Assembly (NCBI GenBank): GCA_947629375.1
Contig: CANRDN010000017.1
Location: 1-42,422 of the forward strand
Length of the DNA stretch: 42,422 bases
DNA from: an uncultured Bacilli bacterium
GTDB taxonomy: Bacteria; Bacillota_I; Bacilli_A; RF39; UBA660
Direction of reading: 5' to 3'
The position numbers were made by a program, and so were the translations under genes. Positions 19,860-26,027 of this stretch are shown here, piece after piece; the stretch's first letter is position 1, and every line of letters begins with the position of its first letter. Below the pieces are notes generated by a model. That model was not told the DNA's origin. It was given only the letters and a program-made list of their open reading frames with translations, and did no database searches.

Positions 19860-20060
19860 AAAAACTCCTACAAATATTGTAGGAGTGCATAACACGGTAC
19901 CATCCTTAAGTTTAACTTAATTAGACTTGTAACGAAGTCACTCGGAATTTTCTTTCGAACTCTGCTCCTAAGTAGTAACTTAAATACTTCTTTATTATCT
20001 TCCACCAAACGATAACTCTCTATAAAATAGGTACCTAAATCGTGTCTTATTCACTGCATT
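19860..20060 (-). promoter_or_regulatory. T-box leader, tRNA-Thr specific (specifier ACU)
   Basis: Minus-strand leader upstream of thrS. The Stem I base TAAG/CTTA and the upper helix TTTAGGTAC/GTATTTAAG flank the specifier loop, which contains ACT at 19976-19974 followed by A. AGAGAG and GGTGGAAG of Stem I are present. T-box TGGTACC is at 19902-19896. AGGA/TCCT plus GTG/CAC form the antiterminator. The competing terminator stem CTCCTACAA/TTGTAGGAG (19885-19865) is followed by TTTTT. A short 5' hairpin (TTCACT...AGTGAA) precedes Stem I. Confidence 0.93.
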
Positions 20061-20069
20061 TATAAGTGA

Positions 20070-20097
20070 ATTATAACACATTTTTTAAATATTTCAA
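20070..20097 (-). promoter_or_regulatory. thrS promoter
   Basis: Minus strand TTGAAA (20097-20092), 16 bp spacer containing a TGTG extension, TATAAT (20075-20070). One of the clearest promoters in the window. Confidence 0.8.
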
Positions 20098-20112
20098 TAG
20101 TAAAGATTTTTA

Positions 20113-20568
20113 TTAGATAGTAAATTCTGCAGCTAAATAAATTCTCATATCTATATTGCCATCCTTGGAAAAAGGTTTTACAAGTCTATATGTTCCTTTA
20201 GGTAGTTTTCCATATGTATTCTCCCAGTTGAATTCTAGTTCTTTTACCTCTCCTGGAAGAACACTATATGAAGGCAATGTAATATCAAATGTTAAATCTA
20301 TTTTGTGCCATTTGCCATCTTGCTTAATTTCTAGTTCGTCAGCATTTCCATAAGAATATAAACTATCACTATCATTTTTAATTACAAATGTAGCTCCCGT
20401 TTTAGTTAATGTGTCTTCTTTAACAGATAATGTTATTCCAGCATCATTAGATATTACTAAATCAGATTCATTTCCTATTTTGATTTTGTTTTCTTCTTCA
20501 CTACTTCCACATCCTGTTAGTCCAAACACAAAAATTCCACATAACAAAATTGTAAATATTTTTTTCAT
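20113..20568 (-). CDS. Lipoprotein with a bacterial Ig-like (Big_14-type) domain
   Basis: 151 residues with a lipoprotein signal peptide: MKKIFTILLCGIFVFGLTGC, where LTGC is the lipobox and Cys20 would be lipidated. The mature part carries the pattern NDSDSLYSYG...LEIKQDGKWHKI...VLPGEVKELEFNW...YGKLPKGTYRLVK, which matches the immunoglobulin-like domain often found in Firmicute lipoproteins. It is anchored on the outer face of the membrane, and its ligand is unknown. GGAGGG precedes the start. It is 53 bases downstream of the protease gene with no terminator between, so probably one transcript. It belongs to the TCGA-poor 20.1-23.9 kb block. Confidence 0.8.
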   Translation of the reverse strand: MKKIFTILLCGIFVFGLTGCGSSEEENKIKIGNESDLVISNDAGITLSVKEDTLTKTGATFVIKNDSDSLYSYGNADELEIKQDGKWHKIDLTFDITLPSYSVLPGEVKELEFNWENTYGKLPKGTYRLVKPFSKDGNIDMRIYLAAEFTI

Positions 20569-20621
20569 ATATAGCCCTCCATTATCAATTATACAGATGT
20601 TATTTAAAAATGTATAGAATT

Positions 20622-21863
20622 TTAATATCTTTTTTGTAACGCAACTGGTATGGAACTTAAATCTGTAAAAAACATTCCGACTTCATTCAAAGGTCCACCA
20701 CTAATTATTCCAATACCGATTGCGCCTCCATTGTCATCTGTTCTAGGTATCATAACAACACCGCCACTATCGCCTCCACTGGCATATGCATCAGTTTTAA
20801 TCAACCCTTTTATTAATGTAGTGCCCTTATCATAATGGGCTGTATAATTTAGACCAGTTACTTTTCCAGTAGTATACTTAGTTGTGGCTCCAGCCTTTGA
20901 AATAGCCATATTGTCAGCAATAACAGGGGAATAATTTATAAGGCCAAGTTTTGTTATATTACTTGGTAAATTATCATATTTATATAAAAAATTTGTTGGT
21001 GTATATGATGAAGATGTTTTTACGAATGCATAATCATATTTTTCATTATTAGCATATTGTGCTACTTCAATAGTTCCAGTAGTAAAATTTTTTAAACCTG
21101 TTGCACAATGACCTGCCGTTAAGTATCCATCGTTACCATTGTATCTAACCCTCATTCCCATAGAACAAAATGGGGCTTTATTTGCAACAAGTAAAAACAT
21201 TTCACCAGCATTTATGTCCTTAAAAGTTATGGGTTTTTGAGCTGTACTGAATTTTATTGCATTTAAGTTTAGATTACCTTTTGTTTTAGCTAATGTATTT
21301 TTAATATTTAATTGTTCCAAAATATTATTTTTAGTAAGTTCAATATTTACACTATTGTCCATTATATCAAGATATGTTCCAGCAACATTATTGTCTATTG
21401 ATTCATCTGTAAACAAATTGTCACTTACATAATTGTTTATATTATTTAATTCATTGAAAGTATAATTAACATATTCAACTTTTACTGATTCATCCATATT
21501 AATAATTTTATTGTAAATATCAAAGTCTTTACTTTCAACTGGTGGAATGTTCTCTTTTACAATTTGAACAATTAAATTTCTTGCATCATCACTAACATAC
21601 ATACCACCAAAGTATGTAGGATAATAATCATTATAAATATCTTTTATATTGTAGTAATCATTTAAAGTTGTTTGAATTTTCGTAGCAAGTTCTACTCTAG
21701 CCCAATTGCGTTCAAGATATTCTTCATCCTCAAACATATCATAATCATCTTGTTGTACATTATCTAATGCTTGTTTTCCATTATCTAATGCGTTAATCGA
21801 AGTAATAGATCCAGATAGTAAAACAAACAAAGCTACTAAAAAAATTAATATTTTATTTTTCAT
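20622..21863 (-). CDS. Secreted chymotrypsin-fold serine protease with propeptide
   Basis: A 413-residue preproenzyme. Signal peptide 1-26 (MKNKILIFLVALFVLL..), acidic propeptide to about 210 containing YFGGMYVSDDARNLIVQIV, a motif like those in streptogrisin/alpha-lytic prodomains, then the protease. The catalytic triad is readable: His252 in LTAGHCATG, Asp277 in EKYDYAFV, Ser366 in GGDSGGV. Cys233 and Cys253 are placed for the conserved disulfide beside the catalytic His. It acts outside the cell; its substrate is unknown. AAAGGAG fixes the ATG at 21863 over the upstream frame. Its neighbours are a second secreted protein upstream and the lipoprotein downstream. Confidence 0.9.
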   Translation of the reverse strand: MKNKILIFLVALFVLLSGSITSINALDNGKQALDNVQQDDYDMFEDEEYLERNWARVELATKIQTTLNDYYNIKDIYNDYYPTYFGGMYVSDDARNLIVQIVKENIPPVESKDFDIYNKIINMDESVKVEYVNYTFNELNNINNYVSDNLFTDESIDNNVAGTYLDIMDNSVNIELTKNNILEQLNIKNTLAKTKGNLNLNAIKFSTAQKPITFKDINAGEMFLLVANKAPFCSMGMRVRYNGNDGYLTAGHCATGLKNFTTGTIEVAQYANNEKYDYAFVKTSSSYTPTNFLYKYDNLPSNITKLGLINYSPVIADNMAISKAGATTKYTTGKVTGLNYTAHYDKGTTLIKGLIKTDAYASGGDSGGVVMIPRTDDNGGAIGIGIISGGPLNEVGMFFTDLSSIPVALQKRY

Positions 21864-21996
21864 AAATACTCCTTTCATTTTTTCTTTAATTAATTTTTCC
21901 ATTTTATATTACTGTTCGATATCTTACATTTTTATACCACCACCATTTTTCAATAATTCAAAACCTGTTCATATAAAACGAAAGGTTTTTACAAAA

Positions 21997-22716
21997 TTAA
22001 AGATTTATGTCCACTCCTGCTGAATTATCATAATAAGTAGCTGCAACTGATGAAAATTTGAAAACATTGCCATATCCGTTGTCGCCTATAGTATATTGTT
22101 TGCTAATGGCTTCAGTCGTATTCTTTTTCGCGTGTTGATAACTTCCATAAACAGTACCACTAGTAGTTGTAACAAATGAAGCTGTCATTTCTATATTACT
22201 AACATTAGGTACTAGAATAGAATATCCAAATCCATTATCATAAACTGACGGATTACTATAAATTTTACTATAATTATTCCCAGATACAACTACATCACTA
22301 ATATTAATTATCGTTCCATTTTTAATTCTAGCTCCAAATACATCATAACTTTTTACACTTGGAGTTTTATTCCATTTGTTACTCAACACCATTAGACAAT
22401 TTTTTGAACAAGTTTTAGTAATTGTCAAAGTTCTTAAATTATCATTTATGGATGTACCTTTAGTCAAAAATGGTTCTTTAAAATGCATCATTACTCTTTC
22501 AACAGGTTTACCAAACAAATCCATATCTTTTATTAGATTGTAATCATCAGGCGTAAGATATTTTTGATACCCTTCACCATACATTTCAGATATAAAATTA
22601 TATTCTTTCTCCGTTAATATTACTCCGTAATCATTTTTGTAAAAATAATCACCTGCAAGTACTGGCTGTGCAAATAATGCAACAAATAAGATAATAATTA
22701 ATTTATATACTTTCAT
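21997..22716 (-). CDS. Secreted protein of unknown function
   Basis: 239 residues with a clear signal peptide (MKVYKLIIILFVALFAQPVLAG, cleavage likely after ALA-like VLA). The mature N-terminal part is helical with a Tyr-rich segment and LTPDDYNLIKDMDLFG. The C-terminal part is beta-like and rich in Ser/Thr/Asn/Val (SFVTTTSGTVYGSYQHA), resembling a secreted beta-sandwich. KTCSKNCLM contains a CxxxC pair. I do not recognise a family. GGAGGAG precedes the start. It is followed by the secreted protease after about 130 bases. It could be a protease partner, substrate, inhibitor or adhesin. Confidence 0.75.
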   Translation of the reverse strand: MKVYKLIIILFVALFAQPVLAGDYFYKNDYGVILTEKEYNFISEMYGEGYQKYLTPDDYNLIKDMDLFGKPVERVMMHFKEPFLTKGTSINDNLRTLTITKTCSKNCLMVLSNKWNKTPSVKSYDVFGARIKNGTIINISDVVVSGNNYSKIYSNPSVYDNGFGYSILVPNVSNIEMTASFVTTTSGTVYGSYQHAKKNTTEAISKQYTIGDNGYGNVFKFSSVAATYYDNSAGVDINL

Positions 22717-22756
22717 AAATTTCTCCTCCTATGAATCAATCATAAAATAAGTCAAT

Positions 22757-22788
22757 AAAAAAAGGTAGTGACAATTTGTCACACCCCT
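22757..22788 (-). terminator. Terminator after the XRE transmembrane regulator
   Basis: Minus-strand GTGACA/TGTCAC stem (extended by a GGG/CCT helix beyond two mismatches) followed by seven T at 22763-22757. It separates the regulator from the secreted protein genes. Confidence 0.7.
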
Positions 22789-22809
22789 ATTTCAGTCAGT
22801 AATCACTTG

Positions 22810-23856
22810 TTATTTTAAATATTTTAAAACATAAGATTTATAAAATTCATCATATATTTTTTGCTTTTTCTCACAGTCTTGGTCATTACAAATAATTTTA
22901 TCATTATCAAACTTAGCAATAAACTTATCACTAGGATTATTATTATCATATGCAAAGTAACTATTATTTAAATTATATGTATAGTAAGATTCATTATTGT
23001 ATACAACTAAAGTTCCTGAATTATAATTCAATAATTCATCACCAATTGCTAGACTACAACCAGAATCATCACATTGAAATGTCTCCTTGATTTTTTCTGG
23101 TATTTCATCTTCAACATATTCCGTCACTGGTGGTCCTATTTTTTGTTCTTTGGTATATATAAATTTATTGTTTACATATTCTTCTTTAAATTCAAGATCT
23201 ATTCTTTCACCATCAATAACCACAAAAATCTTTTGTTTTGAGTTTACAAAATCATCATAAGAAATTAAAGCCTCATAACCATAAAGATCTTTTAATATAA
23301 TATCTGGGTCACCTTTATATATTTGAAATGTCTTATCATCTTCTTCAACATAAACAGAAATTTCATCAACTTCTGGATCTATATTTTCTATTTTTAAATA
23401 AATTTTTTCTTTAGTTAAAATTAATAATCCATCATAAATATTATAGTTTTCTGAAGAGCCTTTAATACTGTATATTCTTACTGTTTTATAATTTTGTAAA
23501 AAATAGAAAATAGTAAGTAAAGAAAATGAAATTAAACATAGAACAGCAAAAAATATAGTTAAGATTCGAATTTTTTTAGATTTCGTTTTTTGTGATTTTA
23601 AATATTCCTTAAAAGTAATATCAATACTTTTCTCATTTTTCTTATTTTTTCTTTCTCCCGATACCAATTCTTCTAATGAAATATCAAATATTTTACTAAG
23701 TAGAATCATATCTTCTAAGTTAACAGCTCTTTTACCATTTTCAATTTTATTTATTTTTGTTCTATCACAATGTATTTTTTCACCCAGATATTCTTGACTC
23801 CAATTTTTCTCTTCACGAAGTTCTTTAATAAAGTTACCTATTTTTTCTTGCTCCAT
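22810..23856 (-). CDS. One-piece XRE-type transmembrane regulator with an extracytoplasmic sensor domain
   Basis: 348 residues. An N-terminal XRE helix-turn-helix (1-65; SQEYLGEKIHCDRTKINKIENGKR is the reading-head region) is followed by a charged linker, one membrane helix (about 97-120) and a roughly 225-residue outer domain with two CX4C pairs (CDDSGC and CNDQDC) that could form disulfides. A DNA-binding head joined to an outer domain suggests direct signal reading across the membrane. No strong Shine-Dalgarno lies right before the ATG. Instead an overlapping 16-codon frame with a good one starts upstream. A near-consensus promoter precedes it. The target is unknown; the adjacent secreted genes are natural candidates. 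Confidence 0.85.
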   Translation of the reverse strand: MEQEKIGNFIKELREEKNWSQEYLGEKIHCDRTKINKIENGKRAVNLEDMILLSKIFDISLEELVSGERKNKKNEKSIDITFKEYLKSQKTKSKKIRILTIFFAVLCLISFSLLTIFYFLQNYKTVRIYSIKGSSENYNIYDGLLILTKEKIYLKIENIDPEVDEISVYVEEDDKTFQIYKGDPDIILKDLYGYEALISYDDFVNSKQKIFVVIDGERIDLEFKEEYVNNKFIYTKEQKIGPPVTEYVEDEIPEKIKETFQCDDSGCSLAIGDELLNYNSGTLVVYNNESYYTYNLNNSYFAYDNNNPSDKFIAKFDNDKIICNDQDCEKKQKIYDEFYKSYVLKYLK

Positions 23857-23888
23857 TTTACTACCATAAAATCAACTTCAAAAAACAT
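23838..23888 (-). CDS. Possible 16-residue leader peptide overlapping the regulator start
   Basis: ATG at 23888 with AGAAAGGA about 8 bases upstream, encoding MFFEVDFMVVKWSKKK and stopping at a TAG 16 bases inside the regulator gene, in a different frame. Ribosomes ending here could reinitiate at the regulator ATG, which has only a weak binding site of its own. The regulator N terminus (MEQEKIGNFI) is typical of its family, so a frameshifted true start is unlikely. Confidence 0.4.
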   Translation of the reverse strand: MFFEVDFMVVKWSKKK

Positions 23889-23930
23889 AATTGATTCCTT
23901 TCTTAAATTTCTTTAAAGTTTTCTAATTTA

Positions 23931-23959
23931 ATTATACTTAATAACAATATAATTGGCAA
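23931..23959 (-). promoter_or_regulatory. Promoter of the XRE transmembrane regulator
   Basis: Minus strand TTGCCA (23959-23954), 17 bp spacer, perfect TATAAT (23936-23931). The predicted untranslated leader is about 65-70 bases and holds the small overlapping frame. Confidence 0.8.
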
Positions 23960-24023
23960 AGTAATCATTAATAATATTTATTGGAAACATTACTACAATT
24001 TTGTCAATTTATGCCAAAAAGAT

Positions 24024-24051
24024 TTATCAAATTAATAATTTAGAATATAAT
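24024..24051 (+). promoter_or_regulatory. Promoter of the glmS ribozyme transcript
   Basis: TTATCA (24024-24029), 16 bp spacer, perfect TATAAT (24046-24051). It is divergent from the regulator promoter; about 65 bp lie between the two -35 boxes. Confidence 0.65.
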
Positions 24052-24093
24052 AATATTAAGATTTAAATGTAGAAAGGTTGTAAATTTATTTCT

Positions 24094-24222
24094 AGCGCCT
24101 GGACCACTTTGGTTGACGAGGATTAATAGCTATCGAAAGATTCGGCGGATGCTATTACGGTAAGTGTGACCGTTATATATACTTAAAAAGCAAAATTAAA
24201 ATTGTAACAAAGGTATATAGAC
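24094..24222 (+). ncRNA. glmS self-cleaving ribozyme/riboswitch
   Basis: GlcN6P-activated ribozyme in the glmS leader. The conserved core is complete: AGCGCC at 24094-24099 with cleavage expected between A24094 and G24095, GGUUGACGAGG, CUAUCGAAAG, UUCGGCGGAUGC, and the CGGU/ACCG helix. A P4-like helix TATATAC (24176-24182)/GTATATA (24213-24219) follows. P1 is very short (ACCA-CUU-UGGU). GlcN6P, the GlmS product, triggers cleavage and lowers glmS mRNA. Confidence 0.95.
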
Positions 24223-24248
24223 ATAATACATTATAGGAGAAAAAAATT

Positions 24249-26027
24249 ATGTGTGGTATCGTTGGATACGTAGGTAAAAAGAACGCCTTAAATGTTCTTA
24301 TCGACGGACTTAAATCACTTGAATATCGTGGTTATGATTCAAGTGGTATAGCATACATTTCAAATGATGAAGTTAATATTATCAAAGAAAAAGGAAAAGT
24401 TAGTGAACTTGAAAAAAAGATTAACTTTAATCAAGATGTAGATTTAGGAATTGCTCACACTAGATGGGCAACTCACGGAGAACCAAGTGTTAAAAATGCT
24501 CATCCTCATACGTGTGAAAAAATAACGCTTGTTCATAATGGAATTATCGAAAATTACGAAGAATTAAAAGAAGAACTAGCAAAAAAATATAATTTTTTAT
24601 CGGATACAGACACTGAAGTTGTGGCAGTTTTATTAAATGAAATTTATAAAGAAAAGAAAGATATTGTCGATTCACTTATCGAATTAAAGAAAAAACTTGT
24701 AGGGTCATACGCTCTTGCAATTCTAGTAAGTGATGAAAAAGATAAGATTTATGCTTTAAGAAAAAATAGTCCTCTTATAGTAGCAAGAAGTACTGATGCC
24801 TCTTTCTTAGCAAGTGATGTACCGGCAATATTAAAATATACAAAAAAATACTCATTACTTTTAGAAAATGAAATTGCTATATTAACCAAAGATAAGATTA
24901 CTTTTTTAAATGATGAAAAAGAAGAAATAACAAAAGAAATAATTACTTTTGAAGGAGAAGAAAACGCTGCTTTAAAAGGTGGCTATGATCACTTTATGTT
25001 AAAAGAAATCTATGAAGAAGAAAATATTGTTAAAAGATTAAGTGAAGAATACTCTTCTTTTGAGAAATTACTTCATAACTTTAAAGATATAAAGAAATAT
25101 AATAAAATAGATATCGTAGCGTGTGGTTCTGCTTACCATATTGGAATTATTGCAAGATACTTAATAGAAGAATATGCTGATATTCCTGTAAATGTAGAAG
25201 TAGCAAGTGAATATCGTTATAAGAAAAACTTTTTAGATAAAAATTCATTAGTTATCTTTATTTCCCAATCAGGAGAAACAGCAGATACTCTTGCTTGCCT
25301 TCGCAAAGTAAAGGAACTTGGTGTAACTACTCTTTCAATTGTCAATGTTGTAGGAAGCTCTATAGCAAGAGAAAGTGATATCGTTATTTACACTAAAGCA
25401 GGACCGGAAATTGCTGTTGCAACTACTAAAGCTTTTGTAGCTCAACTAGTTATTGTTATTCTTCTTACTCTATATTTTGCATATCAAAATAATAAAATGA
25501 CGAAAGAAGAAGTTAGCTCTGTTTTAAAAGATTTACAAAAATTAAATATAAAAGATGTAATAAATAAAGACTATAAAGACATAGCCAAAATTTTAAAAGA
25601 TAAAAATGATATTTTCTTTCTTGGAAGAAACATCGACTATGCAGTAGCACTCGAAGGTTCATTAAAATTAAAAGAGATATCTTACATTCACAGCGAAGCA
25701 TATGCAGCTGGAGAATTAAAGCACGGAACAATATCCCTTATTGAAAATAAAACACCTGTTATTAGTTTACTTACTTGTGATAAGATTATCGAAAAAACAA
25801 TAAGTAATATTAAAGAAGTTAAAGCAAGAGATGCTTATACGATTGCTATTACTACTAAAGCCTATGACTTTATCGATAAGAATATCGTTATTGAAAAAAC
25901 AAACAAATTATTGATGCCTATCTTAGCTGTTATTCCTCTACAATTAATTGCCTATGAAACAGCCAAATTAAAAGGTTGTGACATCGATAAGCCAAGAAAT
26001 CTTGCTAAGTCTGTAACTGTCGAGTAG
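24249..26027 (+). CDS. glmS: Glutamine--fructose-6-phosphate aminotransferase (isomerizing)
   Basis: Makes glucosamine-6-phosphate from fructose-6-phosphate and glutamine, the entry step to peptidoglycan amino sugars, in the cytoplasm. 592 residues. The N-terminal class II glutaminase domain starts MCGIVGYVG, with Cys2 as the nucleophile after Met removal, followed by RWATHGEP and HNGIIENY. Two SIS sugar-isomerase domains follow (FISQSGETADTLA and GRNIDYAVALEGSLKLKEISY). The C terminus DKPRNLAKSVTVE is the family signature. AGGAG precedes the ATG. The upstream ribozyme gives product feedback. Confidence 0.98.
   Translation: MCGIVGYVGKKNALNVLIDGLKSLEYRGYDSSGIAYISNDEVNIIKEKGKVSELEKKINFNQDVDLGIAHTRWATHGEPSVKNAHPHTCEKITLVHNGIIENYEELKEELAKKYNFLSDTDTEVVAVLLNEIYKEKKDIVDSLIELKKKLVGSYALAILVSDEKDKIYALRKNSPLIVARSTDASFLASDVPAILKYTKKYSLLLENEIAILTKDKITFLNDEKEEITKEIITFEGEENAALKGGYDHFMLKEIYEEENIVKRLSEEYSSFEKLLHNFKDIKKYNKIDIVACGSAYHIGIIARYLIEEYADIPVNVEVASEYRYKKNFLDKNSLVIFISQSGETADTLACLRKVKELGVTTLSIVNVVGSSIARESDIVIYTKAGPEIAVATTKAFVAQLVIVILLTLYFAYQNNKMTKEEVSSVLKDLQKLNIKDVINKDYKDIAKILKDKNDIFFLGRNIDYAVALEGSLKLKEISYIHSEAYAAGELKHGTISLIENKTPVISLLTCDKIIEKTISNIKEVKARDAYTIAITTKAYDFIDKNIVIEKTNKLLMPILAVIPLQLIAYETAKLKGCDIDKPRNLAKSVTVE

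Follow-up and report, generated by a model that had tools for sequence, protein, structure and literature searches.

Four leftward genes lie together at positions 20113-23856 of a 42,422-nucleotide contig (CANRDN010000017.1 of GenBank assembly GCA_947629375.1; the whole of it is here called the window) from the 1.87-Mb genome of an uncultured Bacilli bacterium. All four open reading frames were found where a first-pass annotation, made from the sequence alone, had placed them, and they encode a membrane regulator, a secreted protein that we call SEC, a serine preproprotease and an immunoglobulin (Ig)-like lipoprotein (Table 1). Comparison with relatives shows a constant pairing of regulator with SEC and, behind the two, exchangeable genes, which we term the cargo.

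Table 1. Features of the thrS-glmS interval in the window, with the evidence for each
Feature	Position	Strand	Evidence
XRE-headed single-pass membrane regulator	22810..23856	-	HTH_3, E 5e-15; AlphaFold pLDDT 93; pairing with SEC
Intrinsic terminator stem-loop between regulator and SEC, T run after	22768..22782	-	similar elements in relatives
SEC, secreted protein of 239 amino acids	21997..22716	-	no Pfam, NCBIfam, PHROG or PDB family; AlphaFold pLDDT 91
Cargo: S1 (alpha-lytic/streptogrisin-type) preproprotease	20622..21863	-	triad, PDB relatives; pro-region ~21288-21725, catalytic domain ~20622-21185
Cargo partner: Big_14 (Ig-like) lipoprotein	20113..20568	-	PF20251, E 1e-21; homologue in L145
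Insert between thrS and glmS, approximate extent	20115..24024	.	absent from congeners G194, G196, G200

The grouping of the four genes goes beyond chance. In the three congeners that lack the island, thrS and glmS are separated by ~450-520 bases. Homology between the window and these genomes ends at ~20085-20114 and picks up again at ~24025-24041, just before the glmS ribozyme that lies upstream of glmS (24083-24229; Rfam, 75.7 bits). Since homology breaks on both flanks, all four belong to a single insert of 3.9 kb. No direct repeats longer than 8 bases were found at the island edges. The interval is variable in the genus of the window (19890-24249 in the window; L271-L276), being empty in three genomes and holding unrelated genes in other congeners, among them those for a 555-residue protein and an alpha/beta hydrolase-like protein.

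The predicted structure of the regulator comprises a helix-turn-helix (HTH) domain (residues 1-69), a long helix that includes the transmembrane segment (75-122) and two outer beta domains (127-228 and 261-347). The head is of the lambda-repressor/XRE type; matches of the regulator in PHROGs and PADLOC were almost all to HTH models, and the fold search took in the HTH domain only. Both of the CX4C pairs that had been read in the outer domain are present (262/267 and 323/328), but conservation is confined to the second, in about 45 of 69 relatives. Regulators of the same type without SEC stand directly before or near genes for an ATP-binding cassette (ABC) ATPase and an FtsX-like permease at L232, L233, L235, L141 and L144.

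SEC is predicted to have a signal peptide, short N-terminal helices (36-64) and a beta sandwich (~66-239), and its conserved features are a CX3C pair (103/107) and an SYQHA motif. Its description as a secreted protein of no known family stands: in addition to the searches in Table 1, PADLOC returned nothing for it, and BFVD gave weak matches only. The fold is nearest to MSCRAMM/pilin domains and leukocidin-type caps, tied at middling Z scores of 9.5-9.7, a likeness in the model that does not settle the function of the protein. Lipocalins were not among the fold matches listed, which excludes nothing. SEC is sometimes found in tandem duplicate with a longer paralogue.

Relatives of SEC were searched for in a family sample of 193 genomes and among 84,980 species genomes; those found are mostly metagenome assemblies of Bacilli from gut and rumen. 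An XRE gene lies directly upstream on the same strand in 98 of 101 distinct SEC genes; two more are at contig ends, and the single exception is one long-type SEC without an XRE gene upstream. In the family sample, 29 genomes have both the regulator outer domain and SEC, 4 the regulator only, 6 SEC only and 154 neither (p 2e-24, a value that relatedness inflates), and the genome of the window itself has three regulator-SEC pairs. Across 63 pairs, divergence of the outer domain tracks that of SEC (distance r 0.67) more than that of the HTH in the same protein (r 0.52), which is the shorter and noisier half. The presence of the C-terminal CX4C in the regulator is associated with that of CX3C in SEC (p 0.003, uncorrected for relatedness). 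Judged by gene order and co-occurrence, the regulator and SEC are thus an obligate pair, nearly invariant across about 100 loci, and the link that had been proposed from position is far stronger than position alone could make it. Pairs, often with the longer SEC, also stand repeatedly just upstream of spoIVA-like genes (L106, L119, L121, L122, L126, L130, L133 and L135).

The terminator reported between the regulator and the other three genes is real, with the stem GTGACAAATTGTCAC followed by a T run. Hairpin-plus-T-run elements recur between regulator and SEC in relatives, in 21 of 66 by a strict pattern and in more by eye. Because the element recurs, it does not serve as an argument against the genes forming a unit. 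A promoter scan was uninformative (36 hits against 34.5 expected).

The preproprotease has the His-Asp-Ser triad that had been read in it (H265 in TAGHC, D290 in KYDYAF and S379 in GDSGG, numbered on the 426-residue frame); its start required revision. The most likely start codon, judging from an AAAGGAG ribosome site before it, is the ATG at 21863, giving 413 residues, and not the one at 21902, which would give 426. Among solved structures, the protein is nearest to alpha-lytic protease and the streptogrisins (PDB, best E 4.5e-11); the resemblance lies in the catalytic domain and, less certainly, in the pro-region architecture. The pro-region departs from theirs in being recognized weakly: PF02983 (Pro_Al_protease) matched 4 of 11 family members, with a best E of 9e-4, and 2pro aligned in register at E 0.76. 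A further difference is that in relatives the pro-region is reused, as described below.

What lies behind the pair varies. Secreted peptidases of four unrelated classes were found there in 14 of 101 loci, of which six are S1, four matrixin-like, three clan-CD-like and one C39-like. The matrixin-like cargo has HExxH, with PF00413 above cutoff in L050 and L165, and the C39-like cargo matches PF13529 at 51 bits. The clan-CD-like label was given on a GH...GC motif alone in L157, L161, L215 and L113, the last a further candidate beyond the 14; no Pfam match was found in the members scanned, and no PDB match. ABC ATPases of the MacB/LolD/lactococcin-972 type lie within three genes of the pair in 16 loci, often with a small secreted protein. 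Among the 87 genes that come first or second after SEC, 13 encode peptidases, as against 4 of 1083 elsewhere; the p value of this comparison is flattered, as the motifs were partly chosen after the near set had been seen, and the four elsewhere come from loci retrieved because of their protease. A link between protease and regulator is real but differs from the one proposed: the protease is not a fixed partner but one of several interchangeable cargoes.

Two pairs of relatives show exchange of cargo. L050 and L145 have 6763 bp in common at 94% DNA identity, including the regulator (93%) and SEC (94%), and their SECs are sisters with full support. The match stops 39-51 bp past the SEC stop codon, and past this junction L050 has a metalloprotease and a transmembrane protein, where L145 has a serine protease and a Big_14 lipoprotein. 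The same serine/metalloprotease exchange separates L164 and L165, at 71% DNA identity (SEC 72%). Such junctions in metagenome assemblies could in principle be assembly errors, although the two independent exchanges argue otherwise. The cargo of L145 is followed by a degenerate SEC, and that of L113 and of L215 by SEC fragments.

The window protease is closest (49%) to that of L042, which has no regulator-SEC pair nearby, and the L145 protease is only 29% identical to it, though the L145 SEC is among the nearest to the window SEC (52%). Thus, the protease moves independently of the pair. Of the seven S1 proteases found in the family sample, three follow SEC directly, a fourth belongs to the same locus and three are elsewhere. 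Orthologues scattered through unrelated contexts had been named as the observation that would count against a common module; the regulator and SEC are not scattered, the protease is in part, and so is the family of the lipoprotein, which is common in other contexts.

The pro-region also recurs apart from the enzyme. The partner protein at L164, beside a protease, is built of a transmembrane anchor plus the pro-region subdomain of the protease in two copies. Orphan proteins, mostly lipoproteins, carry a single alpha-lytic-type pro-region subdomain in at least six further genomes (loci L250-L255, L259 and L260); no protease adjoins them in the stretches read, and they are candidate surface protease inhibitors. 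In L048 (8119-9405) and L049 (6232-7554), the latter from the genus of the window, XRE membrane regulators have the pro-region as their outer domain (for the L048 ectodomain, 38% identity at E 5e-21), with an unrelated domain of ~110 residues after it. In these two genomes, a search with the protease turned up the regulator fusion alone and no separate S1 protease. In alpha-lytic protease, the pro-region is a folding catalyst that complexes with the enzyme (PMC2829044). Because it binds the protease in this way, anchored copies could plausibly act as inhibitors and sensors.

A small secreted or membrane-anchored protein adjoins the peptidase in most peptidase loci. In the window this is the lipoprotein, whose Ig-like character is borne out by Pfam and which has an LTGC lipobox; its PHROGs matches are weak, of function not known, and start at the signal peptide. 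It is homologous to the lipoprotein behind the L145 S1 protease (34%, E 4e-18), and the transmembrane protein behind the L050 metalloprotease has homologues in the partner proteins at L165 and L189. This co-inheritance of partners, together with the anchored pro-region of L164, leads us to infer an effector-immunity pairing, in which the Big_14 lipoprotein would most likely protect the producer, by analogy.

We suggest that the island is a membrane-regulated locus for swappable cassettes of a secreted effector and a self-protection protein, governed by a constant regulator-SEC sensor, and we give this reading a probability of roughly one half. In this model, the regulator and SEC would be a two-protein surface sensor: SEC, by itself or with a bound cue, would be read by the outer domains of the regulator, and the sensor would turn on expression of SEC and of the cassette that follows. 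That cassette would supply a secreted enzyme and a partner kept on the surface of the producer, protecting it; in the window, the effector would be the alpha-lytic-type protease, synthesized as a preproenzyme, with the Big_14 lipoprotein as its partner. Obligate pairing, the single insert, cargo exchange, the several unrelated peptidase classes, pro-region reuse and partner co-inheritance are the sequence evidence in its favor. By inference, SEC would bind the regulator, which would control the cargo, and the target would be competitors, not food or a host protein. A bolder form, which we regard as tentative and rather doubtful, is that this is a weapon locus of a new class, in which a constant receptor and its released partner would gate a strain-exchanged cassette, proteases of unrelated classes would be the weapons, anchored inhibitors, including recycled pro-regions, the immunity, and regulators with pro-region ectodomains would sense the protease of a neighbor.

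Several observations weigh against the sensor-and-cassette model. In about a quarter of SEC loci nothing follows closely on the same strand, and in many others the genes that follow are ordinary ones; with so many pairs lacking such cargo, the pair must have a role independent of it. The terminator means that regulator and SEC are not simply one transcript. An inverted repeat shared by the regions upstream of 22716 and 23856, which the first-pass annotation had suggested looking for, was not found: in the six loci compared, ungapped 16-mers matched between the regulator upstream region and the regulator-SEC gap did not clearly outscore shuffled ones. SEC-less regulators of this type precede ABC exporters in some relatives. 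Finally, the protective role of the lipoprotein is drawn from the L164 case by analogy only.

The many pairs that stand alone, and the tandem duplication of SEC with a longer paralogue, would also fit an account in which the main secreted effector would be SEC itself, as an adhesin- or toxin-like beta sandwich under the XRE regulator, with peptidases and exporters processing or complementing it. The nearest folds are in keeping with this, but their Z scores are middling and come without sequence support; a specific processing role is improbable when the peptidases are of unrelated classes, and the tight co-divergence of SEC with the regulator outer domain points to a signaling partner. We consider this account unlikely. 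Somewhat less probable again is a module for nutrition or colonization, in which the protease would degrade dietary or host protein, the lipoprotein and SEC would bind substrate or surface, and the regulator would sense peptides or surface contact. The gut and rumen origin of the source genomes, the linkage of the regulator to FtsX/MacB-type ABC genes and the abundance of Big_14 lipoproteins elsewhere are consistent with it; however, the exchange of cargo at a fixed locus, the anchored tandem pro-region and the orphan pro-region lipoproteins resemble effector/self-protection pairs, and to our knowledge nutritional genes seldom show such exchange. That pair and cargo are functionally unlinked, thrS-glmS and similar intergenic sites being insertion hot spots that gather unrelated genes, as thrS-glmS does in other congeners, is very improbable given the peptidase enrichment directly behind SEC (with a motif set partly post hoc), the like kinds of cargo across many genera and sites, and an exchange junction that falls at the end of SEC.

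A literature search of partial coverage found no comparable system of an XRE regulator with a secreted partner. The closest are the transmembrane regulators with co-components, ToxR/ToxS, VtrA/VtrC and PsaE/PsaF (PMC9214523, PMC10269533). Their layout of cytoplasmic HTH, one transmembrane helix and outer domain, followed by the gene of a fast-evolving extracytoplasmic partner, is also that of the regulator-SEC pair, whose partner gene directly follows the regulator at almost all SEC loci. The DNA-binding domain of the ToxR type is OmpR-like. Membership of the ToxR/ToxS-VtrA/VtrC superfamily was considered and rejected, the HTH_3 head here being of the lambda-repressor/XRE type. SEC, moreover, seems to undergo cleavage and release. 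The best alignments of its model are with beta-sandwich folds, and it may differ in this from the lipocalin-like eight-stranded barrel of co-component partners; gut Bacilli as hosts and swappable cargo are further differences. An obligate heterodimer of the two outer parts is characteristic of that superfamily; between regulator and SEC, co-divergence is what was seen. Because of the XRE head and the seemingly released partner, we do not file the pair in the ToxR/ToxS family.

BcrR and BreG are Gram-positive one-component membrane regulators of bacitracin resistance (ABC transporter) or bacteriocin synthesis (PMC10269533, Table 1). No associated protein is listed for them, and the large ectodomain and paired secreted protein here are points of difference; an XRE HTH is present in our regulator as in the BcrR type, ABC genes adjoin the gene in some relatives, though not in the window, and the regulator here has a single transmembrane helix. 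The L171 cargo resembles lactococcin-972-type cassettes in its small secreted protein, a weakly bact_immun_7tm-like protein (E 5e-5) and an ABC ATPase; its peptide was recognized by no model, neither it nor the other cargo peptides scanned matched the Lactococcin_972 family, and the window has no such cassette. Polymorphic toxin, contact-dependent inhibition (CDI) and Rhs loci have a constant upstream part, exchangeable cassettes of effector and partner, and displaced remnants. All three features are also seen here, with the difference that the effector is a separate secreted enzyme and is not fused to a delivery protein.

These observations turn unnamed genes of uncultured gut Bacilli into a testable system of a membrane regulator and a secreted partner, in which natural exchanges of cargo allow the constant control part to be told apart from the enzymes that vary. 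If the effector and self-protection reading is true, secreted proteases would join the weapons used between gut bacteria, and reuse of the pro-region as a surface inhibitor and sensor domain would offer evolution a simple path by which an enzyme could give rise to immunity and signaling.

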